Shown: positions 14,758-45,902 of the stretch, in pieces
Layout: each line of letters starts with the position of its first letter
How positions within the stretch are numbered: the first letter of the stretch is position 1
From: Lachnospiraceae bacterium
Lineage (GTDB): Bacteria; Bacillota; Clostridia; Lachnospirales; Lachnospiraceae
DNA: 45,902 nucleotides
Reading direction: 5' to 3'
Assembly (NCBI GenBank): GCA_017511045.1
Contig: JAFWLM010000018.1
Coordinates: 1-45,902 of the forward strand
Notes under the pieces: generated by a model
What the model was told of the DNA's origin: nothing
Databases searched by the model: none
The model's input: the letters and a program-made list of their open reading frames with translations, nothing else
Program-made: the position numbers and the translations under genes

Positions 14758-14800
14758 GCTTTTTCACCACCTTTTGTGGACTGTTTTACACAGGATTTTA

Positions 14801-14829
14801 TTGAATTCTTTCCTTATATATAATATAAT
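14801..14829 (+). promoter_or_regulatory. Predicted promoter of dnaA
   Basis: -35 TTGAAT (14801-14806), 17-nt spacer, -10 TATAAT (14824-14829) in an AT-rich stretch, 61 bp before the dnaA ATG. It lies just downstream of the DnaA-box cluster. Confidence 0.7.
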
Positions 14830-14890
14830 ATCTACGAACATTTTAAGCGGCGATTCAAACCGCTTTATTTCTTGTAAGTGGAGAGTTTTT

Positions 14891-16255
14891 ATGTTAGAGA
14901 CCATAAAAGAACAATGGCCTGCCATTTTAGAACATTTAAAGCAGGAACATGATATTTCAGATGTATCCTTTAAAACCTGGCTGCTTCCTCTGGAAGTTGT
15001 TTCTGTAGAGAACAATACCATAATTATTGTTGTACCGGAAGAGTCAATTGGTCTGCAATACATAAAAAAGAAATATTATCTCCCTTTAAAAGTTTGTGTA
15101 GAAGAAGTAGTAGGTGAAGCTTTTGAGATCGAGTTTGTTCTTCCCGACCAGCTGAAAGAAAAAATCAAAATGTCTGCCTTAAATGACAGCAAGGATCAGA
15201 TGGATATTTATGAAAAAGCAGGTCTGAATCCGAAATATACCTTTTCTTCCTTCGTCGTAGGTGAAAATAACAATCTCGCACATGCTGCAGCTTTAGCAGT
15301 TGCAGAATCTCCGGCTGAAATCTACAACCCTCTCTATATCTATGGCGGTGTAGGTCTCGGAAAAACACATCTGATGCAGGCAATCGCACATTTCATTCTG
15401 CAGAGGAATCCGGAAATGAAGGTCTTATACATTACAAGCGAGACCTTTACAAACGAGATCATCGATGCGATCCGTTCAAGCAGCGATAATCCGATGGCAA
15501 ATACCCTCTTCAGGGAAAAATACAGAAATGTGGATGTCCTCTTAATTGATGATATTCAGTTCATCAGCGGAAAAGCCAGCACGCAGCAGGAGTTTTTCCA
15601 TACATTCAATGCTCTGTATGAAAATAAAAAACAGATCATCATATCTTCAGATAAACCTCCAAAGGAGATCGATAACTTAGAAGAGCGACTTTGCTCCCGT
15701 TTCTTATGGGGACTTCCGGTCGATATCCAGTCTCCAAACTATGAGACCAGAGTGGCAATCTTAAAGAAAAAGATTGAACTGGAGAATGCTCCTGAGATTC
15801 CTGCCGATGTAATTGATTATATCGCGGAAAATGTCAGTTCAAATATCAGAGAATTGGAAGGTGCTTTAACCAAGATCATTGCATATTCCAAACTGACATC
15901 CTCACCGATCACGCTTTCTTTCGCAGAAAGTGTCCTGCAGGATCTGATCATCGAAGCACAAAAAGAGATCACTCCGGATATGATCATTAAAATCGTTGCT
16001 GAACATTTTAATGTTTCCGTTTCCGATATCATTTCAAAAAAGAAAAGCCAGGATATCGTCTATCCAAGGCAGCTGATCATGTACCTTTGCCGGACTTTAA
16101 CAGATGTGGCTCTTTCTTTGATAGGAAAGAAACTCGGAAACAGAGATCATACTACGATCATTCACGGATATGAAAAAATACAAAGAGAAATCGAAGAAAA
16201 TGACAAGATAAGGAATGACGTAGAAATTCTTAAGAAAAAAATTATTCCTTCCTGA
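14891..16255 (+). CDS. dnaA: Chromosomal replication initiator DnaA
   Basis: AAA+ ATPase that binds DnaA boxes and melts oriC; 454 aa from ATG 14891 (MLETIKEQWPAIL), the start that matches the family; a weak GGAG lies 8 nt before it. Domain I is about residues 1-80, followed by a linker. Domain III has Walker A GGVGLGKTHLMQAIAH and Walker B VLLIDDIQF. Domain IV ends with the DNA-binding signature GNRDHTTIIHGYEKI. DnaA-box clusters flank the gene on both sides. Confidence 0.98.
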   Translation: MLETIKEQWPAILEHLKQEHDISDVSFKTWLLPLEVVSVENNTIIIVVPEESIGLQYIKKKYYLPLKVCVEEVVGEAFEIEFVLPDQLKEKIKMSALNDSKDQMDIYEKAGLNPKYTFSSFVVGENNNLAHAAALAVAESPAEIYNPLYIYGGVGLGKTHLMQAIAHFILQRNPEMKVLYITSETFTNEIIDAIRSSSDNPMANTLFREKYRNVDVLLIDDIQFISGKASTQQEFFHTFNALYENKKQIIISSDKPPKEIDNLEERLCSRFLWGLPVDIQSPNYETRVAILKKKIELENAPEIPADVIDYIAENVSSNIRELEGALTKIIAYSKLTSSPITLSFAESVLQDLIIEAQKEITPDMIIKIVAEHFNVSVSDIISKKKSQDIVYPRQLIMYLCRTLTDVALSLIGKKLGNRDHTTIIHGYEKIQREIEENDKIRNDVEILKKKIIPS

Positions 16256-31091: not shown

Positions 31092-33053
31092 ATGGATCAG
31101 AATAAACTGAAATATCTGAAACTCCTGGCTGCGCAGTATCCGAACATTGCGGAGACTGCGACAGAGATCGTAAATCTCAAGGCGATCATGAATCTGCCGA
31201 AGGGAACAGAGCATTTTATCACGGATCTTCACGGAGAGTATGAGCAGTTCCGGAATATTATGTGCAACGGATCCGGAGCAGTACAGCGCAAGATCGAGGA
31301 GGAATTCGGGATCACGATGGGGATCCCGGAAAAACGCAGCCTTGCGATGCTGATCTACTATCCGGAGATCAAGCTTCCGCAGATGGAGAAAAAAGCACGC
31401 GAAGACGGAGAGCTTGACGACTGGAGAAGGGTGACGATCCTGCGTCTGACAAGAGTCTGCAAAGTTGCTTCTTCCAAATATACAAGGTCGAAGGTCCGCA
31501 AAGCACTTCCCGAAGGCTTTGCCTATATTATTGAGGAACTGATGAGCGGACATCCCGAGATCGAAAACCAGGCGGATTATTATAATGAGATCATTGATGC
31601 CGTTATTGAAACAGGGATCGCAAGAGAGCTGATCGTTGCCTTTTGTCATCTGATCCGCCGTTTTATTATCGAACATCTTCATGTGATCGGAGACATCTAT
31701 GACAGAGGACCTTATCCACACCGGATCATGGATGATCTGATGGCTTATCATTCCGTAGACATTCAGTGGGGAAATCACGATATCCTCTGGATGGGCGCGG
31801 CAGCAGGATCTCCGCTTTGTATCTGCAATATCCTCAGAATTTCCGCGCGCTATGCCAACCTTGCCATTTTAGAGGAAGCATACGGGATCAACCTGATCCC
31901 GCTGATGCGCTTTGCTATGGAAACCTACAAAAATCCCTGCGATGAGATCTTTTCCGTGACAGATAATGATAATCTGTATGATAAAGCAGATGCAGGGATC
32001 GATTCCAAAATGCAGAAGGCGATTGCGATGATACAGTTCAAACTGGAGGGACAGATCGTAAGGCGCCATCCGGAATGGGATATGGAAGACCGCGCGCTTT
32101 TAGATAAGATCGATTACGAAAAAGGCACGATCCTTATTGACGGCTGTGAGTATGAAATGAGGGATATGGATCTGCCGACTGTGGATCCGAATGATCCTTA
32201 TGCGCTGACGGCGGAAGAAAAGGCGCTGATCAATCATCTAAAAGAAAGTTTCCTGCATAGCGGCCGCCTGCAAAAACACATCGGTTTCCTGTACCGGAAG
32301 GGCAATCTTTATAAAGTGTTTAACGGCAATCTTCTTTATCATGGCTGCGTGCCGCTGAATGAAGACGGTTCGTTCAGAGAAGTTGAGATCTACGGAGAAA
32401 AATATAGCGGCAAAGCGCTGTATGATGTTTTAGAGCTTTATGCCCGCAAAGGATTTTACAGCGATGAGCCGGAAGAAAAAGAGAAAGGGCTGGATCTTCT
32501 CTGGTATATCTGGCAGGGAAAATATTCCCCGGTTTTTGGAAAAGATAAAATGACGACTTTTGAGCGCTACTTTATCGAGGATAAGAAAACGCACAAAGAA
32601 CCGAAAAATCCGTATTATACGCTATACGAGAATGAAGAAACCGTGGACAGGATCTTCCGCGAATTCGGTCTGGAAGGAGGAGAGCCGCACATTATCAACG
32701 GACATGTTCCGGTCATCGTTAAGAAAGGCGAGTCGCCGATCAAATGCGGCGGAAAGCTGCTTGTGATCGATGGCGGTTTTTCGAAGGCATATCAGGCACA
32801 GACCGGAAATGCAGGATATACGCTGATCTATAATTCCTACGGACTGGTCCTTGCGGCGCATCCGCCGTTTGAGACGATGGAAAAAGCCGTTTTAGATGAG
32901 ATCAGCATTGACTCGGAGATCGTAATGCAGCACAGCCTCGGAACAAGGAAAAAAGTGGCAGATACTGATACAGGGACAGAGCTGAAAGCACGTGTTGCAG
33001 ATCTTGAGGCATTGCTGAAAGCATACAGAAGCGGACTTCTGACAGAAAAATAG
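31092..33053 (+). CDS. fbp: Fructose-1,6-bisphosphatase, class III
   Basis: Gluconeogenic enzyme that hydrolyses fructose-1,6-bisphosphate to fructose-6-phosphate; 653 aa, the usual class III (Firmicutes) length. Metallophosphatase motifs are visible: DLHGEYEQF (about 43-52), GDIYDRGPYPHRIMD (about 201-215) and WGNHDILWMGAAAGS (about 223-237). The C-terminal part has INGHVPVIVKKGESPIKCGG. It follows the hybrid kinase gene by 31 bp with AAAGGAAAGGAAG and may be co-transcribed. The terminator ends 3 bp before the convergent MATE stop. Confidence 0.96.
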   Translation: MDQNKLKYLKLLAAQYPNIAETATEIVNLKAIMNLPKGTEHFITDLHGEYEQFRNIMCNGSGAVQRKIEEEFGITMGIPEKRSLAMLIYYPEIKLPQMEKKAREDGELDDWRRVTILRLTRVCKVASSKYTRSKVRKALPEGFAYIIEELMSGHPEIENQADYYNEIIDAVIETGIARELIVAFCHLIRRFIIEHLHVIGDIYDRGPYPHRIMDDLMAYHSVDIQWGNHDILWMGAAAGSPLCICNILRISARYANLAILEEAYGINLIPLMRFAMETYKNPCDEIFSVTDNDNLYDKADAGIDSKMQKAIAMIQFKLEGQIVRRHPEWDMEDRALLDKIDYEKGTILIDGCEYEMRDMDLPTVDPNDPYALTAEEKALINHLKESFLHSGRLQKHIGFLYRKGNLYKVFNGNLLYHGCVPLNEDGSFREVEIYGEKYSGKALYDVLELYARKGFYSDEPEEKEKGLDLLWYIWQGKYSPVFGKDKMTTFERYFIEDKKTHKEPKNPYYTLYENEETVDRIFREFGLEGGEPHIINGHVPVIVKKGESPIKCGGKLLVIDGGFSKAYQAQTGNAGYTLIYNSYGLVLAAHPPFETMEKAVLDEISIDSEIVMQHSLGTRKKVADTDTGTELKARVADLEALLKAYRSGLLTEK

Positions 33054-36080: not shown

Positions 36081-36097
36081 ATGGCAGTTTCTGCCAT
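36081..36097. promoter_or_regulatory. Inverted repeat just before the SDR gene
   Basis: ATGGCAG-TTT-CTGCCAT, a perfect 7-bp inverted repeat with a 3-nt loop, ends 13 bp before the SDR start codon. It could be an operator or an mRNA hairpin near the ribosome binding site (GAAGGAGAG at 36099-36107). A weak -10 TATAGT lies at 36060-36065. Confidence 0.45.
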
Positions 36098-36110
36098 AGA
36101 AGGAGAGAAT

Positions 36111-36887
36111 ATGAGATTCAGCGGAAAAACGATAATTATTACAGGAGCAGCAGGAACGATCGGGAAAGCCGTTGCCAATGCCTTTTATCAGGAAGGAGCA
36201 AATCTTGCACTGGTTGATTGCAACAAGGAAGCCTTGGAACGAGTATGCAGAGAAGAAGGCTGGAATGAGAGAACTCTGCTGCTTCCTTCTGATGTTACGG
36301 ATGAAAAACAGGTGGAAGAGTATGTTGCGAAAACGGTAGAGCGGTTCGGTGCGGTTGATGCGTTCTTCAATAACGCCGGAATCACCGGGAACCGGAAAAC
36401 GATCGCGGAATTTGATATTGAACATTTTCGGAAACTCATGGATATCAATGTTACAGGCATAGCCCTGGGGTTAAAATATGTCCTTCAACAAATGTACAGG
36501 CAGGGCAGCGGATCAGTGATCAACACGTCCTCGCAGAAAGGAAAAGTCTTTGCAAAGGGCAGTGCCGATTACGCAGCGTCGAAAAGTGCAGTGATCACCC
36601 TTACAAAAATCGCGGCGATGGAATCGGCAGAAAAGAATGTCCGGGTCAACTGTATCATGCCGGGAATCGTCCATTCAAAAATGCTGGTCGATGTTAAGCG
36701 AAAAGGAAATCCCGACCTTTCCGTTGAGGAGATTGGCCGGTCGTTTGGGGATTCGATCCCAATCGGAAGGTGGTGTGAACCGGAAGAGCTTGCAAAGGCT
36801 GTTATGTTCCTGGCTTCAGACGATGCTTCATATATTACCGGAGCGGAGCTCCATATCGATGGCGGAATGACAGCAAATAGTTTATAA
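36111..36887 (+). CDS. Short-chain dehydrogenase/reductase (SDR), classical type
   Basis: 258-aa NAD(P)-dependent oxidoreductase. Start ATG 36111 (MRFSGKTIIITG) is preferred over an in-frame ATG 30 bp upstream because GAAGGAGAG is 3-11 nt before it. The cofactor motif TGAAGTIG, the NNAG motif, and the catalytic set Ser (NTSSQ), Tyr-x3-Lys (DYAASKSAV) are intact; the C-terminal SYITGAELHIDGGMTA is typical. It lies directly upstream of the sulfoquinovose operon but is separated by a terminator, so it is its own unit. SDR enzymes oxidise sulfoquinovose in the sulfo-ED pathway; a role in sugar-sulfonate metabolism here is only a hypothesis. Confidence 0.88.
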   Translation: MRFSGKTIIITGAAGTIGKAVANAFYQEGANLALVDCNKEALERVCREEGWNERTLLLPSDVTDEKQVEEYVAKTVERFGAVDAFFNNAGITGNRKTIAEFDIEHFRKLMDINVTGIALGLKYVLQQMYRQGSGSVINTSSQKGKVFAKGSADYAASKSAVITLTKIAAMESAEKNVRVNCIMPGIVHSKMLVDVKRKGNPDLSVEEIGRSFGDSIPIGRWCEPEELAKAVMFLASDDASYITGAELHIDGGMTANSL

Positions 36888-36899
36888 TAGGAAAAAAAT

Positions 36900-36930
36900 A
36901 AAAGGCGCCCTTGTTACGGCGTCCTTTTTA
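36900..36930 (+). terminator. Intrinsic terminator after the SDR gene
   Basis: AAAAGGCGCC (36900-36909), 8-nt loop, GGCGTCCTTTT (36918-36928; one bulged T), then TTA. It ends the SDR transcript 13 bp after its stop and overlaps the next promoter. Confidence 0.78.
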
Positions 36931-36939
36931 TGGTACAGT
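36911..36939 (+). promoter_or_regulatory. Predicted promoter of the sft operon, embedded in the SDR terminator
   Basis: -35 TTGTTA (36911-36916) lies in the loop of the upstream terminator; 17-nt spacer; -10 TACAGT (36934-36939). Two palindromes TTAATTAA (36944-36951 and 36957-36964) flank the RBS AAAGGA and precede ATG 36969; they are candidate operators or an mRNA structure. Both hexamers match consensus at 4/6. Confidence 0.5.
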
Positions 36940-36968
36940 GCAATTAATTAAAAGGATTAATTAATGTT

Positions 36969-38933
36969 ATGCTGGAAAGACTAAAAGACATCAAAATATC
37001 GATCGCGATCGGCGAGAACCAGTTTTCGATGAAACGGGGAAGTTTCCGCTACCGGCAGAAGATCTGGCTGCAGGCGGAGCTAAAACGCCGGAATCTCGTT
37101 CAGACAATCGATGGCTTTGATCTGGAACTGGATAAAGACAGCAGGCCGTATACCTTTTCTGTCAGAGAACAGGATGGACTTGTCCGCGCGGAATTGATCC
37201 AGCCGGAGACGCATAAAAAATACAACCGTTTCTCGATCACCTTTCCGGTGGAAAAAGATCTGCATTTCTATGGCTGTGGCGAGCTCCATTCCCACTTTGA
37301 TCTTCGCGGGGAAAAGATCAGGATCTTCGTTGCAGAGCATCAGAACACCAATCGGATCGGAAGAAAGCTCCTGCGCGCAGGTCTTTTGATGAAGAGGGAC
37401 GATAAAGTCCGTCCGCTGGATGAATACGAATCCTACTATGTACAGCCGACATTTACGACCAGCGGAAAATGGTTTTTCCATGCAGAAACGAAAGGTTTTA
37501 GTGAATTCGACTTTTCTGTTCCGGGGCAGGTAACATTCCATACACAGGAACCGCCTGTTTTCTGGCTTGGAAAAGCAGAGACCTATCCGGAACTATCTGA
37601 AAAACTGACTTCTTTGCTTGGAAGGCAGGCCGAACTTCCGGATTGGATCTATGACGGTGCGATCCTTGCGGTACAGGAAGGCTGTGAGGTGATCGACCGG
37701 AAAATAAAAGCGGCAGAAAAAGCAGGGGCGAAGGTCTGCGGTATCTGGTCTCAGGACTGGTGTGGCTGCAGAAGGACTGGCTTCGGCTATCAGGTCATGT
37801 GGAACTGGCAGTGGGACAGAGAACTCTATGTGGATCTGGATGAAAAGATCCGTGCCTGGAAGGAGAAGGGCATTCGTTTTCTGGGATATATCAACCCATT
37901 CCTGGCAATTGAGCAGAATCTGTATAAATACGCGACGGAACAGGGATACTGCGTAAAAGATAAAAACGGAGAAGACTATCTTGTTACGATCACGACCTTC
38001 CCGGCGGCAATGATCGATCTGACCAATCCGGATGCATGGGACTGGTACAAGGCGATCATCAAAGACAATATGATCGGCCTCGGCATGGGCGGATGGATGG
38101 CTGACTTCGGGGAATATCTCCCGACAGACTGCGTGCTTTCTTCCGGAGAAGATCCGGAAAAGCTTCATAACCAGTGGCCTGCGATGTGGGCAAGACTGAA
38201 CCGGGAAGCGATTGAAGAGAGCGGAAAGCAGGGAGAGGTTTTCTTCTTTACCCGTGCGGGATATACGGAAACACCAAAGTATTCCCCAATGATGTGGACA
38301 GGAGACCAGCACGTGGACTGGTCTGTGGATGACGGGCTCCCGTCTGTGATCCCCGCAACTCTTTCGCTTGCCATGAGTGGTTTCGGTATTACTCATTCTG
38401 ATGTTGGCGGCTATACCACGGTCTCCAGAATGACCCGAAGCAAAGAACTGCTTTTAAGATGGGAAGAGATGAATGCCTTTTCTCCGCTCTTCAGATTCCA
38501 TGAAGGAAACCAGCCTTCAAGAAATGTCCAGTTTGACGCAGATGAGGAGCTTCTGCAGCAGCTGGCAAAGTTCAGCAGCATTCATGCGGCACTGAAGCCG
38601 TATCTTAAAACTCTGGAAAAAGAAAATACAGAAAAAGGGACGCCTGTCATGCGGCCGCTGTTCTATCACTATGAAGAGGCAGCAGCTTATACAGATAAAA
38701 CGGAATATCTCCTGGGGAGGGATATCCTTGTCGCGCCGGTCTTAAAAAATGAGGCAGTCTCCAGAGAGGTATGGCTGCCGGATGATCACTGGGTGCATCT
38801 TTTTACAAAAGAAGAATATGAAGGCGGTACACACACGGTTTCCGCACCGGTCGGAACGCCGCCTGTTTTTATAAGGAAAGAAAGTCCGGCTTTTGAAAGC
38901 ATGATGAATATCATCAATGGGGAGACAGTCTGA
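36969..38933 (+). CDS. sftG: Family GH31 sulfoquinovosidase (YihQ/SftG-like)
   Basis: Retaining alpha-glycosidase expected to release sulfoquinovose from sulfoquinovosyl glycerol or related glycosides; 654 aa. Stretches such as LLGRQAELPDWIYDG, NWQWDRELYVDL, MADFGEYLPTD and GDQHVDWSVDDGL closely match E. coli YihQ as I remember it. Nucleophile Asp379 (MADFGEY) and acid/base Asp446 (WTGDQHVDW) are present. Of the YihQ sulfonate-pocket residues, the Gln pair (Gln236, Gln262), Trp278 and Tyr482 appear kept, but the Arg (E. coli Arg301) is Gln275 (GYQVMW). It is the first gene of the operon, whose other genes fit the sulfo-TAL pathway, so SQ glycosidase is the best call. A related alpha-glucosidase is the alternative. 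Confidence 0.85.
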   Translation: MLERLKDIKISIAIGENQFSMKRGSFRYRQKIWLQAELKRRNLVQTIDGFDLELDKDSRPYTFSVREQDGLVRAELIQPETHKKYNRFSITFPVEKDLHFYGCGELHSHFDLRGEKIRIFVAEHQNTNRIGRKLLRAGLLMKRDDKVRPLDEYESYYVQPTFTTSGKWFFHAETKGFSEFDFSVPGQVTFHTQEPPVFWLGKAETYPELSEKLTSLLGRQAELPDWIYDGAILAVQEGCEVIDRKIKAAEKAGAKVCGIWSQDWCGCRRTGFGYQVMWNWQWDRELYVDLDEKIRAWKEKGIRFLGYINPFLAIEQNLYKYATEQGYCVKDKNGEDYLVTITTFPAAMIDLTNPDAWDWYKAIIKDNMIGLGMGGWMADFGEYLPTDCVLSSGEDPEKLHNQWPAMWARLNREAIEESGKQGEVFFFTRAGYTETPKYSPMMWTGDQHVDWSVDDGLPSVIPATLSLAMSGFGITHSDVGGYTTVSRMTRSKELLLRWEEMNAFSPLFRFHEGNQPSRNVQFDADEELLQQLAKFSSIHAALKPYLKTLEKENTEKGTPVMRPLFYHYEEAAAYTDKTEYLLGRDILVAPVLKNEAVSREVWLPDDHWVHLFTKEEYEGGTHTVSAPVGTPPVFIRKESPAFESMMNIINGETV

Positions 38934-38966
38934 CGCATCAGACGCAAAAAAGAGGAGGTTTTACAC

Positions 38967-40457
38967 ATGAAAGATCAAGCACAGCGAGAGAAAAGCTTCT
39001 GGTCAAAAGTCAGTTATGGTTTTGCTGACATCTATGGAGGCGGAGCCTTTGTCATCATCAGTACCTTTTATACGGTATTTCTGACAAAAGCCCTCGGAAT
39101 GCCACCTGCGATGGCAGGCACGATCCCTTTGATCGGAAAGATCTGGGATGCGGTTACTGACCCTGTTATGGGTAATATCTGTGACCGGACAAGATCCAAA
39201 TTCGGAGCGAAGCGTTTTTATATGATGATCGGAAGTATCATCAGCGCCATCACCTTCATCCTGATGTGGGTCAATATCGGTGCCGGAAGTTCACCGACAG
39301 TCAAATACATTTTCTATATGCTGATGTACATGCTGTTTTCTACCGGCTTTACCATTGTTATGGTTCCGTATAACGGACTGCTTCCTGATATGGTCGATGA
39401 TTATACGGTAAGAAGTAAATTCTCCGGTGTCCGCATGGTCTTTTCCACCTTTGGCGCGATCCTTGCCGGACTGATCCCGACCCTTCTGATCAAGGAGAAT
39501 ACAAAACCGGGTCCTTACCTTACAGTCGCGCTGATCTTTGGCGTGATCTTCCTGGTCACGATCCTTCTGACTTTCTTCGGAACATGGGAAAAGCAGAAAG
39601 AGCCGGTCAAAGTGGGATTCGGCGAAAGCTTTGTACAGTCCTTAACAGTTTATAAGAGCAGAAGCTTCCGCCTGTTTATCGGTATCTTCCTCTTTGGTCA
39701 GGGTGCCGCCGACTTTGTAACAGGCCTTGCTGTTTACTATGTGGATGATGTGCTGAATGCGTATGGCGGAGGACGCTTCACATATCTTATGGCAGTCATC
39801 TTAGTTTCCCAGTTTGTAGGAACGATCGTCTTTACACCGCTTATGGCAAAGACATCCAAGAAGTTCCCTCTGCTGCTCGGCTTCCCGCTTCGTATCGTGG
39901 CGACAGTCGCGCTGCTGTTCTTCTCCCATGAGGGTGCAAGTTTTATGATCATTCTGGTCCTTTCCTTCATTATCGGACTGGGAATGGCAGGCTCTTCCAC
40001 AACGATCTATGCGATCCTTGCGGATATGGCGGATGTTGACAGGCTGATCACTTCCCTGAGCCGTCCGGGTATCGTATCTGCGATGGCAACCTTTGTTCGT
40101 AAGATCGCGACCGGTATCTCAACCGCGATCATCGGCCTCTTACTTTCGATGGTCGGATACAGCGAGACGCTGGCAAATGCGGGACAGAGACAGGCTGCTT
40201 CGACGCAGCACGGCATTGCCCTGATCTATATCATCGCACCGATCGTGCTCTGTATTATTGCAATTCTCTTTACTGTCTGGTTCCCGATGAAGAAGAAGGA
40301 ATTTGAGATCGTAAAGAAAGAGATCGCAAGGCGTCTGGGTGAAGAAGACTCTGCAGTAAGCGAAGAAGAGAAGAAAGTCTGCGAAAAGATCACCGGATTT
40401 AAATTTGAAAAACTGTGGAATCCGGATAACGCACTTTCCTTTAAATCAACAAAATAA
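38967..40457 (+). CDS. sftA: GPH-family MFS sugar (sulfoquinovose) importer
   Basis: 496-aa, 12-helix cation symporter of the glycoside-pentoside-hexuronide family. The signature loop is DPVMGNICDRTRSKFGAKR (about residues 53-71), repeated near VDRLITSLSRPG later. AGAGGAGG lies before ATG 38967. Homologous GPH carriers (E. coli YihO type) import sulfoquinovose or its glycosides, so the position between the glycosidase and the transaldolase supports that role; the substrate is inferred from context. Confidence 0.85.
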   Translation: MKDQAQREKSFWSKVSYGFADIYGGGAFVIISTFYTVFLTKALGMPPAMAGTIPLIGKIWDAVTDPVMGNICDRTRSKFGAKRFYMMIGSIISAITFILMWVNIGAGSSPTVKYIFYMLMYMLFSTGFTIVMVPYNGLLPDMVDDYTVRSKFSGVRMVFSTFGAILAGLIPTLLIKENTKPGPYLTVALIFGVIFLVTILLTFFGTWEKQKEPVKVGFGESFVQSLTVYKSRSFRLFIGIFLFGQGAADFVTGLAVYYVDDVLNAYGGGRFTYLMAVILVSQFVGTIVFTPLMAKTSKKFPLLLGFPLRIVATVALLFFSHEGASFMIILVLSFIIGLGMAGSSTTIYAILADMADVDRLITSLSRPGIVSAMATFVRKIATGISTAIIGLLLSMVGYSETLANAGQRQAASTQHGIALIYIIAPIVLCIIAILFTVWFPMKKKEFEIVKKEIARRLGEEDSAVSEEEKKVCEKITGFKFEKLWNPDNALSFKSTK

Positions 40458-40530
40458 TGAGCTGCACAGGGCGGTCATTATAAACTGCCGGGAAAGCATG
40501 CTCATAAACCATACATTTTAGGAGGATGAG

Positions 40531-41217
40531 ATGAAATATTTTTTAGACAGCGCAAAATTAGATGAGATCGAAGAAGCCTATCACAGTTTCGGGATCGATG
40601 GAGTGACCACAAATCCCCGTCACATCATGGATTCCGGAAAGCCGTTCCTTACAGCGGTCACGGATATTGCGGAGTGGATCAAAAAAGAAGGGCTGGAAGG
40701 TTATGAGAAGTTTCCGGTTTCTGTTGAGATCGATCCTTATCTGGAAGATACAGACGAAATGGTGGAGGCAGCAAGAAAGATTTCTGCGATCTCTGAAAAC
40801 TTTGTAATAAAGATCCCCTGCATTCCGGCCGGGATCGCGGCAGCAAAAAGACTGGAAGCAGAAGGGATCCGAACGAATGTAACATTGGTATTCTCCGCAG
40901 CGCAGGCAATCCTTCCTGCAAAGAACGGCTCCCTCTTCGTTTCTCCGTTCATTGGATGGAAAGAAGCAAACGGCGAAGACTGCAGACAGTACATTCAGGA
41001 TATCGTAACGATCTATAAGAACTATGGTTTTTATGGAAAAACGCAGATCATCTGCGCAGCAGTCCGGACAGCAAAACAGTTTGTGGACTGTGCAGTAGCA
41101 GGAGCGGATATTGTTACCGCCGGCCTTGCAGTTTACAAAGATTCCATGGTTCATCCATATACCCGTCAGGGAATGGATACGTTCAGAGCCGCATGGGATA
41201 AAACAGTAAAATCATAA
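40531..41217 (+). CDS. sftT: Class I transaldolase, probable 6-deoxy-6-sulfofructose transaldolase (SftT)
   Basis: 228-aa (TalC/FSA-size) transaldolase. The opening MKYFLDSAKLDEIEEAY and VTTNPRHIMDSG, Schiff-base Lys94 in NFVIKIPCIPAG, and TNVTLVFSAAQA are family marks. In the sulfo-TAL pathway SftT transfers the glycerone part of 6-deoxy-6-sulfofructose to glyceraldehyde-3-phosphate, giving fructose-6-phosphate and 3-sulfolactaldehyde. Motif TNPRH replaces the usual TNPSL and could help bind the sulfonate. TAGGAGG precedes ATG 40531. The stop codon lies in a 16-bp inverted repeat. The family is sure; the specific reaction is inferred from neighbours. Confidence 0.85.
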   Translation: MKYFLDSAKLDEIEEAYHSFGIDGVTTNPRHIMDSGKPFLTAVTDIAEWIKKEGLEGYEKFPVSVEIDPYLEDTDEMVEAARKISAISENFVIKIPCIPAGIAAAKRLEAEGIRTNVTLVFSAAQAILPAKNGSLFVSPFIGWKEANGEDCRQYIQDIVTIYKNYGFYGKTQIICAAVRTAKQFVDCAVAGADIVTAGLAVYKDSMVHPYTRQGMDTFRAAWDKTVKS

Positions 41218-41236
41218 TAAATGATTTTACTGTTTT
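41200..41236 (+). promoter_or_regulatory. 16-bp perfect inverted repeat across the sftT stop codon
   Basis: AAAACAGTAAAATCAT (41200-41215), loop AATAA, ATGATTTTACTGTTTT (41221-41236). All 16 pairs match. The stop TAA (41215-41217) lies at the top of the stem. It may act as an attenuator or a 3'-exonuclease barrier that gives sftT more mRNA than the genes below. Confidence 0.75.
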
Positions 41237-41246
41237 AAAGAAAAAG

Positions 41247-41313
41247 GCGCAGAAAATTACAGAAGAAGTTGCTGCGCAACAGTAATTTTCGCGCAGTACA
41301 GCAAAGCTGTACT
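41247..41313 (+). promoter_or_regulatory. Two further tandem stem-loops in the sftT-sftF gap
   Basis: Hairpin 1: GCGC(A)GAAAATTAC (41247-41260) with GTAATTTTCGCGC (41282-41294), enclosing an inner GTTGC/GCAAC. Hairpin 2: AGTACAGC-AAA-GCTGTACT (41295-41313). Neither is followed by a U-run, so mRNA stability, processing or protein binding is more likely than termination. sftF begins 35 bp later with AGGAGAAAAG. Confidence 0.7.
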
Positions 41314-41348
41314 TATTACTACAAATAAACAGGAGAAAAGCGACAATA

Positions 41349-42206
41349 ATGAAAATTGGTTTTGTCGGACTCGGCATTATGGGCGAGTCCATGTGTGAGA
41401 ATATCATTAAAAAACACGATGACGAAGTCTATGTGTTTGATGTAGTAAAAGAAAAAAGGGATAAGCTGGCTGCTCTCGGCGGGATTCCGTGTGAGAGCTC
41501 AAAAGAGGTGGCAGAAAAAGCGGATGTGTTTATCAGCATGGTGCCGAAGTCAGAGCATTCCCGCGCAGTATATGAAGAGGTCCTCCCGGTCCTTTGTGAA
41601 GGAAAGACCTGCATTGATATGAGCACGATCGATCCGGGCGTTTCCGTTGAACTTTCGGAAATGGTAAAAAAGACAGGAGCGGAGTTTATCGATGCACCGG
41701 TCGTAAAAAGCAAACCGGCGGCAATCGCAGGAAAACTCGGGATCTACGTCGGAGGATCAGAAAAAGCATATGAGGAAATGCGGCCGATCCTTCTTTATAT
41801 GGGCGAGAACGTTATGCGGCTTGGCGATAACGGAAAAGGGCTTGTCATGAAGATCTGCCATAATGCGCTTGTTTCCCAGATCCAGAACGGTGTGAACGAG
41901 ACATCGACTCTTGCAAAACTGAACGGGATCGATATCTTAACTTTCGCCGAGGCGATCTCCTATGGCGGCGCCGGAAACTGGTATCTGGATTCTAAAAAAG
42001 ATGTGCTTTCGAAAGAAGATTATACAACAGCGTTCTCCATTGAAAATGAGCATAAAGATGTGCATATCTGTTTGAATCTGGCAAAGGAATGTGGATTATC
42101 CATGCCAGGCGAAGAAAATGCAGTGAGAGTATACGATAAGGCAATGGAGATGGGAATCGGGAAAGAAGATTTCTGTGCAACGATCAAGGTGGTCCGCGGT
42201 GAGTAA
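41349..42206 (+). CDS. sftF: Beta-hydroxyacid dehydrogenase family, probable 3-sulfolactaldehyde reductase
   Basis: 285-aa NAD(P)H-dependent enzyme expected to reduce 3-sulfolactaldehyde to 2,3-dihydroxypropane-1-sulfonate (DHPS). The Rossmann motif is GFVGLGIMGESM (GxGxMG); catalytic Lys168 is in VMKICHNALV with Asn172. The substrate loop, usually DAPVSGG, is DAPVVKSKPAAIAG, so the carboxylate-binding SGG is replaced by V-K-S; the sulfolactaldehyde reductase YihU also departs from SGG here. AGGAG precedes ATG 41349. Its end overlaps the DUF4867 gene by 8 bp. A generic 3-hydroxyisobutyrate-type enzyme is the alternative. Confidence 0.82.
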   Translation: MKIGFVGLGIMGESMCENIIKKHDDEVYVFDVVKEKRDKLAALGGIPCESSKEVAEKADVFISMVPKSEHSRAVYEEVLPVLCEGKTCIDMSTIDPGVSVELSEMVKKTGAEFIDAPVVKSKPAAIAGKLGIYVGGSEKAYEEMRPILLYMGENVMRLGDNGKGLVMKICHNALVSQIQNGVNETSTLAKLNGIDILTFAEAISYGGAGNWYLDSKKDVLSKEDYTTAFSIENEHKDVHICLNLAKECGLSMPGEENAVRVYDKAMEMGIGKEDFCATIKVVRGE

Positions 42207-42897
42207 GCTGAAAGAATTAAATGAAAAAAATCATTTTCAGATCCACAGTGTCGAAGATGAACGTTTTCAAAAATACGGACGTATCCTGAGATTCTTTCCT
42301 GCAGAGGATCTGGCACGCCGCGCGGAAGAATATACAACGATCCCGGAGAAGGGCAATACCTATGTTGCCTCATTACCGGAACTGGAAGAAGCTGACGGTG
42401 TGTCAAAAATCAGAGACGTCATTTACGGAGGCTTTCCGATCCAGGTGGGTTACTGCAACGGCAGGAATTCCACGATTAATGGATTTGAATACCATAAGAC
42501 CAGCGAGATCAATCTTGCGCTGACGGACTATTGTCTGGCGCTTGGACACCGGTTTGATATCTCCCCTGAGTTGACTTATCCGGCGGAAAAGGCAGAGTTT
42601 TTCTATGTCCCGAAAGGGACGGTCTTTGAAATGTACGGAACGACCCTGCATTTATCTCCGCTTAAGACAAGGGATGAAGGCTTTAAAAATATCGTGATCC
42701 TGCCGCGGGGAACCAACACGCCGCTTTCCGAAGAGGAAAAAGAAGAGGCAAGGCGCGCACATGCAAAGGGGCATTTAGAATCCTGTCTTCTGCTGCAAAA
42801 GAGTAAATGGGTCATTTCCCATCCGGAGAGAGAGCCACTGATAAAACAGGGTGCACATCCCGGGGTCATCGGAGATAATATTGAGCTGAAGTACTGA
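42199..42897 (+). CDS. sftX: DUF4867 protein (SftX-like), function unknown
   Basis: 232 aa from GTG 42199 (SKLKELNEKNHFQIHSVEDERF), chosen because AAGGTGG lies 5 nt upstream and the start overlaps sftF by 8 bp. Cupin-like features: FEYHKTSEINLALTDYCLALGHRFD at about residues 94-118, then EFFYVPKGTVFEMYGTTLHLSP with a His and acidic residues that could bind metal. DUF4867 genes recur in sulfo-TAL clusters but I know no proven role; mutarotase, isomerase or accessory metal enzyme are guesses. Confidence 0.78.
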   Translation: MSKLKELNEKNHFQIHSVEDERFQKYGRILRFFPAEDLARRAEEYTTIPEKGNTYVASLPELEEADGVSKIRDVIYGGFPIQVGYCNGRNSTINGFEYHKTSEINLALTDYCLALGHRFDISPELTYPAEKAEFFYVPKGTVFEMYGTTLHLSPLKTRDEGFKNIVILPRGTNTPLSEEEKEEARRAHAKGHLESCLLLQKSKWVISHPEREPLIKQGAHPGVIGDNIELKY

Positions 42898-42899
42898 CC

Positions 42900-43628
42900 A
42901 TGGAATATGTACTGTTTTATCTGACAATTTTACTGACCCATATCATTCAGGGGATCACGGGATTTGCAGGAACTTTACTCGCAATGCCGTTTTCGCTTCG
43001 TCTGGTGGGAGTGGACGTTGCAGTCCCCGTCTTAAACGGACTGGGGATCGCAAGCGGTTTATATATTTTTCTCGGGAACCGGAAACATGTTGTCTGGAGG
43101 GAAGTCGGAATCGTTCTGGCAGTTATGATCCCTTTCATGCTGGGCGGCGTTTTTCTGCGTAATCTTCTGAAAGGAAATACAAGGACCCTGTTTATAGTTC
43201 TGGGTATCATTGTTCTTCTATTGGCGGTGAAGGGGATCTATGATCTGTTCTTCGCCAAACAGGAAAGACCTCTGCCGACCGCTGTCCGATACGGAGCCTT
43301 GGTACTTGCCGGAATCGTACATGGAATGTTCGTCTGTGGTGGTCCGCTTTTGATCATCTATATCGCAGACCGGCTTCCAAAGAAAGAAGCGTTCCGCGCA
43401 ACCCTTTCTACGATCTGGGCTGTCCTGGACACGATCCTTCTGGTAACACAGTTGATTTCCGGAGAGTGGAGCCTTCCGCTTCTTAAGACCCAGCTGATCG
43501 CGCTTCCGGTCCTGATCCTTGCTATGATCATCGGAAGTCTTTTATATAAGAAGATGAGCCAGAGGCTTTTTATGATCATTACTTACATTTTACTATTGAT
43601 ATCGGGAATTTCTTTATTTTTCAAATAG
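42900..43628 (+). CDS. sftE: TauE/SafE-family sulfonate exporter
   Basis: 242-aa membrane protein with about eight helices. The opening THIIQGITGFAGTLLAMPFSL and repeat GIVHGMFVCGGPLLIIYI are the TauE/SafE signature (paired helical repeat). The family exports sulfite, sulfoacetate and other organosulfonates, so here it most likely exports DHPS or sulfolactate. It starts 2 bp after the DUF4867 stop. Confidence 0.85.
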   Translation: MEYVLFYLTILLTHIIQGITGFAGTLLAMPFSLRLVGVDVAVPVLNGLGIASGLYIFLGNRKHVVWREVGIVLAVMIPFMLGGVFLRNLLKGNTRTLFIVLGIIVLLLAVKGIYDLFFAKQERPLPTAVRYGALVLAGIVHGMFVCGGPLLIIYIADRLPKKEAFRATLSTIWAVLDTILLVTQLISGEWSLPLLKTQLIALPVLILAMIIGSLLYKKMSQRLFMIITYILLLISGISLFFK

Positions 43629-43666
43629 AAAGATATCAGATATAATTACAAAGAGGTTAACAATCT

Positions 43667-45010
43667 ATGAAACAGTTTCAAATCGCATATGTACCGATCG
43701 GAGTTCCGACATTTCATTTGGAAAGTGCGCAGAAAGAATTCGGGAAATCAATTGACCTTTTAAAGGGACTTTGTGATAATACGCAAAAGCCGAAAGAAAT
43801 GCTTCTTTCGATCGATAAACTGAACGAATATCTGGATACGCTAGATCCGGAACTGATCATACTGCAGAATATCACTTTCGCAAATGCAGCCTACAGTCAG
43901 GAGGTGCTGCATCGTTTTCCGGATGTTCCGATCCTGCTCTGGGCGTTAAGGGAACCGGTGATCGATGGAGGAAGACTGCGTCTTAATTCTCTGACCGGTG
44001 CATATTCTGCGGGAAATACGATCCGTCAGTTCCGGAAAGAGCCGCTGGACTTTGTTTTCGGATCCCCGGAAGAAGCGGAAGTGGTTCAGAAGATCAAAGC
44101 TGTGATCAAAGCGGCAGAGCTGAAGTTTTCTCTTAAGTCTTTGAAACTTGCAGCCATCGGACATACGCCGCAGGGATTCGGATTCGGCCGTGCGCTGGAT
44201 TCGGAAATGCTGAAAACGTTTGGTGTTCGTTTAGAATCGATCGAAGCAAGAGAGTTGATCGAGAAAGCAAAAGCGTATACGGATGCGGAGTGTGAAGAGT
44301 TCTTGAAGGACGCAGAGGAAAGAACTGTCGGCCTGAGCCAGACTCCGGAGCAGAACCGGAAAGATTTTGCAAGACTTTATAAAGCTTATGCAGAGTACGT
44401 CAGGGAAAACGGGATCGGAGCGGTTGCTTCCCGCTGCTGGCCGGACTTTTTCACTTCTTTCGGAACACCGGTCTGCACCGTGCTCGGAATCCTGAATGAT
44501 CTGGGAGTTGCTGCAAGCTGCGAAGCAGATACCTATGGAGCGCTTTCTATGTACATGGGAATGCAGCTGACAGGTCTTCCGGCATTCTTCGGAGATCCGG
44601 TTTCCTTAGATGAAAAGGAGAATGCGATCACCTTCTGGCATTGCGGAATGGCTGCCTGCTCACTTGCCAGAGAAGATACCGGCGCGGTGATCGGGGAACA
44701 CTGCAACCGCCATATCGGACCGACACTGGAATTCGGCTGCAGGAAAGCAGAACATGTTACGATCTTCCGGGTCGGAAAAGCGCCGGACGGGACTTTCAGA
44801 TTCTTCATTGCCGGTGGCGAGGCGTTAGATAAAGAAAAACAGTTTTTCGGAACTTCAATGTCTGTTAAAACAGATACAGATGCGAAAACGATTGTACAGA
44901 AAACAGTAGAGGCCGGATGGGAGCCGCATTTCGCAGTCATTTACGGAGATGCTGCGGACAGCCTGGAATACCTCGGCCATATGCTGAATATAGAAGTATA
45001 TAGATTTTAA
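43667..45010 (+). CDS. sftI: Fucose/arabinose-isomerase-fold sugar isomerase, probable sulfoquinovose isomerase (SftI)
   Basis: 447-aa aldose-ketose isomerase-like protein. Candidate metal ligands are Glu286 (ASCEADTYGALSMY), Asp310 (FFGDPVSLDE), His325 (FWHCGMA) and His421 (PHFAVIYGD), in the order seen in L-fucose isomerase (Glu, Asp, His). In the pathway it would turn sulfoquinovose into 6-deoxy-6-sulfofructose. The family is likely; the substrate is inferred from the operon. Confidence 0.8.
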   Translation: MKQFQIAYVPIGVPTFHLESAQKEFGKSIDLLKGLCDNTQKPKEMLLSIDKLNEYLDTLDPELIILQNITFANAAYSQEVLHRFPDVPILLWALREPVIDGGRLRLNSLTGAYSAGNTIRQFRKEPLDFVFGSPEEAEVVQKIKAVIKAAELKFSLKSLKLAAIGHTPQGFGFGRALDSEMLKTFGVRLESIEARELIEKAKAYTDAECEEFLKDAEERTVGLSQTPEQNRKDFARLYKAYAEYVRENGIGAVASRCWPDFFTSFGTPVCTVLGILNDLGVAASCEADTYGALSMYMGMQLTGLPAFFGDPVSLDEKENAITFWHCGMAACSLAREDTGAVIGEHCNRHIGPTLEFGCRKAEHVTIFRVGKAPDGTFRFFIAGGEALDKEKQFFGTSMSVKTDTDAKTIVQKTVEAGWEPHFAVIYGDAADSLEYLGHMLNIEVYRF

Positions 45011-45030
45011 TACAGGATAAGGGGGTTCTC

Positions 45031-45902
45031 TTGCAGAAGACCGGAATGAATATGGAGCGGGTGCGTCAGCAGAACCGTGCTCTGATTTTAAATTATATTA
45101 ATGATCATGGCCCTTCTTCAAGAAAAGACATCGCGTATGCAACAGGCCTGACCCAGGCGAGCGTTACCCAGATCACGACCGCATTGATACGGGAAGGGAT
45201 CTTACGGGAAGGCGAGATCGTAAAAGAAAGCGAGAAAGCTGTCGGAAGACGGAAGGTTCTGCTGCATATCGATGCGGAGGCCTTTCTTGTGCTGGCAGTG
45301 AACGCGGAGCCGGATTTTACGACAGTTGCCGTCTGTGATCTTATGGGTTCCGTTGTTGCGGATCGGGATGGAAACCAGCTTCTGCACCAGTTTATGACCC
45401 AGAAAGATCTTCCCCCAAAAGAATTTCTTCTTCACATTGCGGAGATCTGCAGCGAGTTGATGGAGCAGATCCCTGATACGATCAAAGGACATGTTGAGTG
45501 TATCTCCTATGCGACGACCGGTATTGTAGACCGTGAAGAAGGAATCTCCCGCCAGGCGTATGGCATCTGGAATGAAGAAGTTCCGGTCAGGAAGGTCCTG
45601 GAAGCAGAGCTTAAGCTCCCGGTACTGCTTGAGAACAATGTTGACGCTTTCGCAATTGCAGAACTGTATTTCGGAAGCGGACGGATCCATCATGATCTGC
45701 TTGTGCTCAAATGGGGCCCGGGTGTTGGCAGTTCCGTCATCATCGATGGCCAGGTTTATCATGGCCGCCACGGAAAGACTGCGGAAATGGGTCACATTAT
45801 TGTGAATCCGAAGGGGAAACTCTGTGTCTGCGGAAGAAGGGGATGTCTGGAAACCCTCGTTTCTGAAAAAGAACTGAAAAAAATCGAGAAGACAAGTGAT
45901 AA
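45031..45902 (+). CDS. ROK-family transcriptional regulator (3' end beyond window)
   Basis: At least 290 aa, incomplete. A TTG at 45031 is chosen because GGGGG is 5 nt upstream; ATG 45046 is an alternative. A winged helix-turn-helix is at about residues 10-65 (NRALILNYINDHGPSSRKDIAYATGLTQASVTQ), followed by the ROK domain with the zinc motif CVCGRRGCLETL and the sugar-binding EMGHI. It lies 20 bp after the isomerase gene and probably represses the sft operon, with sulfoquinovose or a derivative as inducer; candidate operators are the TTAATTAA repeats at 36944-36964. Confidence 0.85.
   Translation, partial: MQKTGMNMERVRQQNRALILNYINDHGPSSRKDIAYATGLTQASVTQITTALIREGILREGEIVKESEKAVGRRKVLLHIDAEAFLVLAVNAEPDFTTVAVCDLMGSVVADRDGNQLLHQFMTQKDLPPKEFLLHIAEICSELMEQIPDTIKGHVECISYATTGIVDREEGISRQAYGIWNEEVPVRKVLEAELKLPVLLENNVDAFAIAELYFGSGRIHHDLLVLKWGPGVGSSVIIDGQVYHGRHGKTAEMGHIIVNPKGKLCVCGRRGCLETLVSEKELKKIEKTSD

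Follow-up and report, generated by a model that had tools for sequence, protein, structure and literature searches.

We propose that one end of a contig from a Lachnospiraceae metagenome-assembled genome (MAG) carries an operon, inducible by sulfoquinovose (SQ), for the sulfoglycolytic transaldolase (sulfo-TAL/SFT) pathway ending in 2,3-dihydroxypropane-1-sulfonate (DHPS), and that its GH31 glycosidase is a variant sulfoquinovosidase. We consider this explanation probable. The analyzed DNA, hereafter the window, is the whole of contig JAFWLM010000018.1 (C123; 45,902 nucleotides), from a MAG that is 80.85% complete and comprises 2.04 Mb in 151 contigs. SQ, a sugar of plant membranes that contains sulphur, ranks among the largest organic sulphur pools, and the yihQ glycosidase gene serves as a marker for counting SQ degraders. 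The sulfo-TAL pathway type itself is already known.

Eight plus-strand open reading frames (ORFs) form a single run from 36969 to 45902, with intergenic gaps of 2-131 bp and a single overlap, which measures 32 or 8 bp according to where DUF4867 is taken to begin. The ORF list and the Pfam and NCBIfam scans bear out the families and order that a sequence-only reading of the window had given. They are a GH31 glycosidase (36969..38933, 654 aa), a GPH (MFS_2) permease with 24% identity to YihO (38967..40457), a TAL_FSA-family transaldolase (40531..41217, 228 aa), a beta-hydroxyacid dehydrogenase (beta-HAD) reductase (41349..42206), a DUF4867 cupin (SftX; 42175..42897, alternative start 42199), a TauE-family transporter (42900..43628, Pfam PF01925), a Fucose_iso_C/SftI-like isomerase of the fucose-isomerase fold (43667..45010) and a ROK-family regulator (45031..45902, Pfam PF00480). 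Families, gene order, key residues, the recurrence of the gene set, and an upstream palindrome with its own recurrence were all computed.

In the scheme that we propose, the substrates are all predicted, and so are the end product, the GH31 activity and the repression with its ligand. The GPH permease would import an SQ glycoside (for example SQ-glycerol) or SQ, and the GH31 enzyme would free SQ, holding the sulfonate in a pocket with Gln and Thr in place of the Arg and Glu of the known enzymes. The isomerase would convert SQ to 6-deoxy-6-sulfofructose (SF); the DUF4867 protein would act in some way on SF or SQ. The transaldolase would pass a C3 unit of SF to glyceraldehyde-3-phosphate, yielding fructose-6-phosphate and 3-sulfolactaldehyde. 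The reductase would convert the latter to DHPS with regeneration of NAD, and the TauE-family protein would export the product. Acting at the palindrome (36943-36965), the ROK regulator would keep the operon repressed until relieved by a sugar ligand.

Pathway enzymes

The best solved match of the transaldolase is the SF transaldolase of Bacillus megaterium (BmSF-TAL, 8bc3; 7.6e-81), and the best ordinary transaldolase reaches 6.3e-45. Its closest solved relative is thus a sulfonate enzyme, as the sequence-only reading had needed it to be. The window protein and BmSF-TAL both read TTNPRHIM and GWKE, and 1vpx and 6ys0 read TTNPTLI and GRMDD/GRLDD. In the transaldolases of related clusters GWKE is present in 67 of 68 rows, with a gap in the remaining one, and the first segment takes the form P[RKN]HI in 66 of 68 (two gaps). 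By these residues the protein belongs with the predicted SF transaldolases of the SftT/SqvA type. The DUF4867 protein matches PF16161 at 8.7e-68 and the solved B. megaterium protein SqvB (9gyy) at 2.2e-59, and is a member of the SftX group. The B. megaterium DUF4867 protein has a 2His-2Glu site (PMC11968277).

The reductase, a proposed 3-sulfolactaldehyde reductase, is 31% identical to YihU and has a Lys at the place of YihU R123, which we take to be a functional residue of that enzyme. The Lys recurs in 68 of 70 reductase rows; the other two have gaps. For the isomerase, the proposed SQ isomerase, the only NCBIfam match is the SftI model NF048012, and a search of solved structures returned no relative. 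We read the run as a sulfo-TAL operon because the transaldolase and the DUF4867 protein match solved sulfo-TAL proteins, the reductase carries the basic residue, and the same gene set is found in many loci; the gene content claimed by the sequence-only reading is supported to this extent. At least three of the four core genes (transaldolase, reductase, DUF4867 and isomerase) occur together in 69 of the loci examined, some of them overlapping, which is too frequent for a chance arrangement. An ordinary sugar operon with a mere family resemblance to the pathway might be assembled from similar parts, since the GPH, ROK, beta-HAD and transaldolase families are all common. However, matches to BmSF-TAL, to the sulfo-TAL DUF4867 protein and to the SftI model alone come together here in one operon, and we regard an ordinary sugar operon as extremely improbable.

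No aldehyde dehydrogenase was found among the operon genes; the rest of the genome was not searched for one. With a reductase present and no aldehyde dehydrogenase among these genes, the pathway is expected to end in DHPS, as two reports on related clusters suggest (PMC8397734; PMC11659671). DHPS from such a strain could feed sulfite reducers, and HpfG and HpfD are encoded by genes that take DHPS further (PMC11489063). In rumen microcosms, whose taxa differ from that of the window, SQ was converted to isethionate and DHPS was undetected (PMC13219744).

The GH31 glycosidase

YihQ (5aed) is the best solved match of the GH31 protein (1.4e-189), which also passes the NCBIfam model NF007746 (PRK10426) with 790 bits against a cut-off of 553. 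At YihQ positions Q262, Q288, R301, W304, D405, D472 and Y508 the window protein has Q, Q, Q, W, D, D and Y (numbering checked on K-12 DNA for 288, 301, 304, 369, 405, 472 and 508). The catalytic Asp pair D405/D472 is thus kept, as D379/D446 of the window protein, and W304 and Y508 are kept as W278 and Y482; YihQ R301 corresponds to Q275 of the window protein, E369 is replaced by Thr and R541 by Gln. R301, W304 and Y508 are the residues that we take to hold the sulfonate in YihQ. The segment with residues 301-304 is present in the window protein and absent from the alignment of the xylosidase YicI, and Y508 is kept in the window protein and not in YicI (one comparison in each case). The presence of this segment places the window enzyme inside the sulfoquinovosidase group.

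We aligned 97 homologues (96 different) that were longer than 560 residues or came from solved chains, shorter pieces being excluded. Residue 301 is Gln in 57 and Arg in 40 of them, including all four solved enzymes. Every sequence with Gln301 has T, V or A at position 369 (57/57), and those with Arg301 have E in 38 of 40 cases, with one D and one A (L135). We read Arg-Glu and Gln-Thr as a coupled exchange between residues that may touch each other. Its direction is left open, as is the ancestral residue at 301, because the branch to the YicI outgroup is very long (9.32).

In a tree built with columns 301 and 369 masked, the four solved enzymes fall in an all-Arg group of 36 rows with 98% support in the Shimodaira-Hasegawa-like approximate likelihood ratio test (SH-aLRT), and the window enzyme in an all-Gln group of 40 rows (99% SH-aLRT). 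The type label changes three times on the tree, two of the changes being forced by well-supported branches. A small mixed clade on the Arg side contains Gln sequences (L128 and L136/L140), and residue 369 changes in step there. The Gln type has also gained basic residues, in the window protein R118, H124, R129, K133 and H448, with a pocket location indicated for none of them.

The Gln-type enzymes are, by their sequences, a common and uncharacterised branch of GH31 without the residue thought to grip the sulfonate. We favor the view that the window enzyme is a sulfoquinovosidase variant, because the W304 segment and Y508 are kept and the tree groups it with sulfoquinovosidases, and we lean towards the prediction that Gln-type enzymes cleave SQ glycosides.

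Other variants of the sulfonate site were also seen. A YihQ-like GH31 in genome G697 (L130) has Arg301, with W304 replaced by Tyr and Y508 by Phe. Genome G890 (L177) has two Gln-type GH31s with Phe at YihQ-508, 6 kb apart and separated by ABC sugar-transporter genes.

Distribution of the two GH31 types

With a search threshold of E up to 1e-80, the GH31 was looked for in three overlapping genome draws, in each of which the window's genome is one of those with the gene: 26 of the 394 Lachnospiraceae genomes have it, as do 7 of the 391 sampled across the class and 7 of the 398 sampled across the phylum. The 29 Lachnospiraceae copies comprise 17 with Gln (among them L165, which also has Phe at 508) and 12 with Arg, and three genomes (G066, G164 and G291) have both types. 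In G219, the sole other genome of the window's genus in these lists, the GH31 and the isomerase were not found. Loci of Pseudobutyrivibrio ruminis DSM 9787 and Butyrivibrio sp. MB2005 (L072 and L076) combine a Gln-type GH31 with all four core genes.

By hand count, two or more core genes lie near 13 of the 17 Gln-type copies. This frequency, together with an upstream motif shared with Arg-type clusters (see below), argues for a role of the Gln type in SQ metabolism. A contig of G164 (L170) points in the same direction: it joins a Gln-type GH31, and with it permease, iron-dependent alcohol dehydrogenase, split transketolase and transaldolase genes, to an Arg-type GH31 and SftI farther along.

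On the trees of SftI, transaldolase and reductase the GH31 type changes 7 times each, against shuffled means of 20.3, 17.1 and 15.7. The types are thus clustered, yet swaps between them, over downstream enzymes that are related, have occurred several times. This bears on the idea that the whole operon serves a different 6-sulfonated sugar through the same chemistry. An isomerase well under the SftI cut-off and an altered GH31 pocket would fit such a sugar, but the transaldolase, reductase and isomerase are not split by GH31 type and the transaldolase has the BmSF-TAL segments; we hold a different sugar to be very unlikely. The isomerase was itself considered as a mark of a separate substrate, and this was dropped as the close isomerase clade spans both GH31 types. 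In eight further loci (L120-L127), with isomerases of about 30% identity, the other core genes are all absent. A close GPH permease (at least 50%) accompanies 20 of the 55 loci of Gln type and 1 of the 33 of Arg type, in a collection built largely on isomerase similarity.

Upstream palindrome

A perfect 9-bp inverted repeat, ATTAATTAA-AAGGA-TTAATTAAT, lies at 36943..36965, 3 bp before the ATG of the GH31 gene. It is the sole match in the window at up to three mismatches (shuffled mean 0.04) and the only exact site in the window's genome. In the nearest relative, locus L032 of an uncultured Clostridia MAG, it is identical but for one spacer base.

We scanned 108 loci (1.86 Mb, window included) with the motif TTRATTAA-N5-TTAATYAA at up to one mismatch. 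In these loci, which were picked for the isomerase, the GH31 or their neighbours and in part served to derive the motif, so that the scan is not independent, we found 68 distinct sites, 35 of them exact, in 51 of the 108; ten first-order Markov simulations gave 0-2. Sites were assigned to a gene if they lay between -200 and +330 bp relative to the start of its reading frame; 64 of the 68 then fell at GH31 (25), transaldolase (22), a DASS-family transporter (6), SftI (5), DUF4867 (4) or GPH (2), and 4 lay elsewhere. Of the 56 long Gln-type GH31s, 25 carry the motif at their start, and of the 33 Arg-type ones none does, the Arg clusters having it mostly at the transaldolase.

Whole genomes gave a similar picture for exact sites, which were present in 9 of 10 genomes with a cluster and in 0 of 10 without (20 genomes, hand-picked from earlier lists). 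The 17 exact sites comprised 13 in or near clusters and 4 outside. Two results count against the motif. One-mismatch sites occurred in 3 of the 10 cluster-less genomes (four in G009, one each in G005 and G053), and a reversed-pattern control was equally frequent in some genomes (5 versus 6 in G252, 5 versus 3 in G066). One-mismatch sites away from clusters therefore carry little weight. We regard the palindrome as a candidate ROK operator that may serve clusters of both GH31 types, the connection to ROK being suggested by gene neighbourhood.

All four exact sites outside clusters (G034, G139, G066 and G252) lie upstream of one gene for a DASS-family anion transporter, which is 77-85% identical between these genomes. 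The same gene follows an exact site in G351, making five genomes in all, and the orthologues (L193:6051-7472, L194:6036-7457, L195:4312-5736, L196:4550-5977 and L200) are unlinked to the SQ cluster. Among the 69 loci with at least three core genes, some of them overlapping, 39 have TauE, 12 have DASS, none has both and 18 have neither (Fisher p 1e-5 for the exclusion, kinship ignored). The DASS gene was found in 7 of 20 genomes searched, and in 0 of the 6 with TauE in the fetched cluster (G000, G304, G383, G372, G293 and G136). The DASS transporter is thus a candidate alternative DHPS exporter where the cluster shows no TauE. A strict rule of TauE or DASS proved incomplete, given the 18 clusters with neither and the genomes G109 and G215, which show neither. 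The window operon carries TauE, its proposed DHPS exporter.

Points against and a different glycosidase substrate

Several results weigh against a complete SQ operon with a variant sulfoquinovosidase. The reductase scores 149.5 bits against a cut-off of 348 on the sulfolactaldehyde 3-reductase model NF012005, and the isomerase 409 against 700 on the SftI model, so that neither passes the curated model test. The assignments made by the sequence-only reading hold for these two proteins at the level of the family, with a basic residue at the R123 place in the reductase and SftI as the only model matched by the isomerase, and fall short at the level of the curated model and, for the isomerase, of a solved relative. 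The GH31 enzyme has Gln at YihQ R301, the arginine that we take to be a sulfonate ligand, and the stretches 118-133, 340-347 and 515 also differ between Gln and Arg types. The enzyme that the sequence-only reading had called sulfoquinovosidase-like is therefore not a standard sulfoquinovosidase. Fewer than two core genes lie near 4 of the 17 Gln-type Lachnospiraceae copies (none in G234, G075 and G291, one in G238), 31 of the 56 long Gln-type GH31s have no motif at their start, and the ROK gene of the window is cut at 45902 by the contig end.

The GH31 results could also mean that the pathway is sulfo-TAL while the Gln-type enzyme cleaves another alpha-glycoside, the natural food not being SQ-glycerol. 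Its substrate might be a 6-substituted glucoside that bears no charge, or SQ joined to a different aglycone. The loss of R301 in step with the changes at 118-133, 340-347 and 515 would fit, as would the three genomes that keep both types, which different jobs would predict, and the G075 copy with no core genes nearby. Nevertheless, nearly all Gln copies retain W304 and Y508, the gene heads the operon under a motif common with Arg-type clusters, and sulfo clusters are where the majority of Gln copies are located. We consider this substrate change unlikely and continue to prefer a variant sulfoquinovosidase.

Genomic context

The sequence-only reading had called the operon complete-looking and placed it about 22 kb from oriC. 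The distance is fair: the origin region spans 14.8-23.4 kb, with dnaA at 14774-16255 followed by dnaN, a RecF/SMC-type gene, gyrB and gyrA, and the GH31 start lies about 22 kb from the dnaA start, the presumed origin site. As to completeness, the ROK gene is truncated, so the claim leans on synteny with one relative. L032 has the same nine genes, including the short-chain dehydrogenase/reductase (SDR) gene described below, at 85-97% identity, and adjoins the same M18 peptidase. Its ROK orthologue (L032:10281-11396) is full-length, with 371 aa, and downstream of it lie genes for a Na/Pi cotransporter and an M20 peptidase. As these genes are unrelated, the operon probably ends with ROK, and probably only the regulator is cut in the window.

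Directly upstream of the operon lies the SDR-family dehydrogenase gene (36081-36887). The sequence-only reading did not include this gene, nor did it include the palindrome (36943-36965) or the Gln at YihQ-301. Of 94 loci, L032 and the window (L001) are the only ones with the SDR gene next to the GH31. On account of this rarity and of an intervening terminator-like hairpin (36904..36923, plus strand; the stretch is kept in L032), the SDR gene was set aside as first gene of the operon and is probably a separate unit behind the hairpin. The hairpin argument is weak, as such hairpins are no commoner than chance (9 found, shuffled mean 10.1). A possible weak plus-strand promoter, TTGTTA-17-TACAGT (36911..36939; 8/12 consensus matches), was read by eye and lies below the threshold of the promoter scan, which did not list it. 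It overlaps the hairpin, and the two are competing readings. A Firmicute-type fructose-1,6-bisphosphatase gene is located a few kb upstream, at 31092-33053, and no tie to the operon was seen.

Discussion

A close known system is the sulfo-TAL/SFT cluster of Eubacterium rectale (PMC8397734; PMC11968277), which has the same kinds of genes (GH31, isomerase, transaldolase, reductase, DUF4867 and exporter) and is, as we read the window, an anaerobic DHPS-forming variant. The comparison covers the kinds of genes; E. rectale SftG (6pnr) has Arg at 301 and belongs to the all-Arg clade, whereas the window enzyme has Gln. B. megaterium provides the best solved matches to the window transaldolase and DUF4867 protein; this aerobic organism oxidizes sulfolactaldehyde (PMC11489063), and the window operon has a reductase instead. 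E. coli YihQ shares Q262, Q288, W304, D405, D472 and Y508 with the window enzyme and differs at R301, E369 and R541, where the window has Gln, Thr and Gln. The bifurcated sulfo-TK/sulfo-TAL (transketolase/transaldolase) cluster of Faecalicatena (PMC11659671) has the same kinds of transaldolase and SQ isomerase. Unlike it, the window run has no transketolase; L170 in G164 is such a locus with a Gln-type GH31.

Natural variation at the sulfonate site has a parallel in the GH188 sulfoquinovosidases, whose clades also vary at a sulfonate-site position within sulfoglycolytic clusters (PMC11465081). GH188 differs in being an unrelated family with another mechanism; a backbone amide makes the contact there, and the site was judged intact in the authors' models (PMC11465081). 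In the open PMC literature, judged by title and abstract opening, we found no report of an SQ operator or of a Gln-type sulfoquinovosidase; novelty in print is not established.

The palindrome offers a simple rule for locating SQ genes that are unlinked to a cluster and has already led to the DASS-family candidate exporter. In G075 (L169) a Gln-type GH31 has a GPH permease and an aldo/keto reductase as neighbours and 0 core genes in 20 kb; this locus may show the job of a stand-alone Gln-type enzyme.

Since 17 of the 29 YihQ-like copies lack the Arg, either the family recognizes the sulfonate in its absence, or enzymes with a different function are being counted by the marker. A 2021 gut survey screened GH31s by a motif of YihQ signature residues (PMC8397734) and could have missed the Gln class, should R301 belong to that motif. 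The primers of a 2026 rumen survey are named 1201F/1526R (PMC13219744). Should the names refer to nucleotide positions in yihQ, the amplicon would cover about codons 401-509 and be blind to residue 301. We suggest, tentatively and with more doubt than conviction, that the Gln301/Thr369 enzymes form a second functional class among the glycosidases of the SQ pathway, common among Clostridia of the rumen and other gut habitats and acting on a different natural sulfoquinovoside from the SQ-glycerol used by the Arg class. Such a class, if real, would explain the genomes that have both types, and screens based on the YihQ signature would pass it over.

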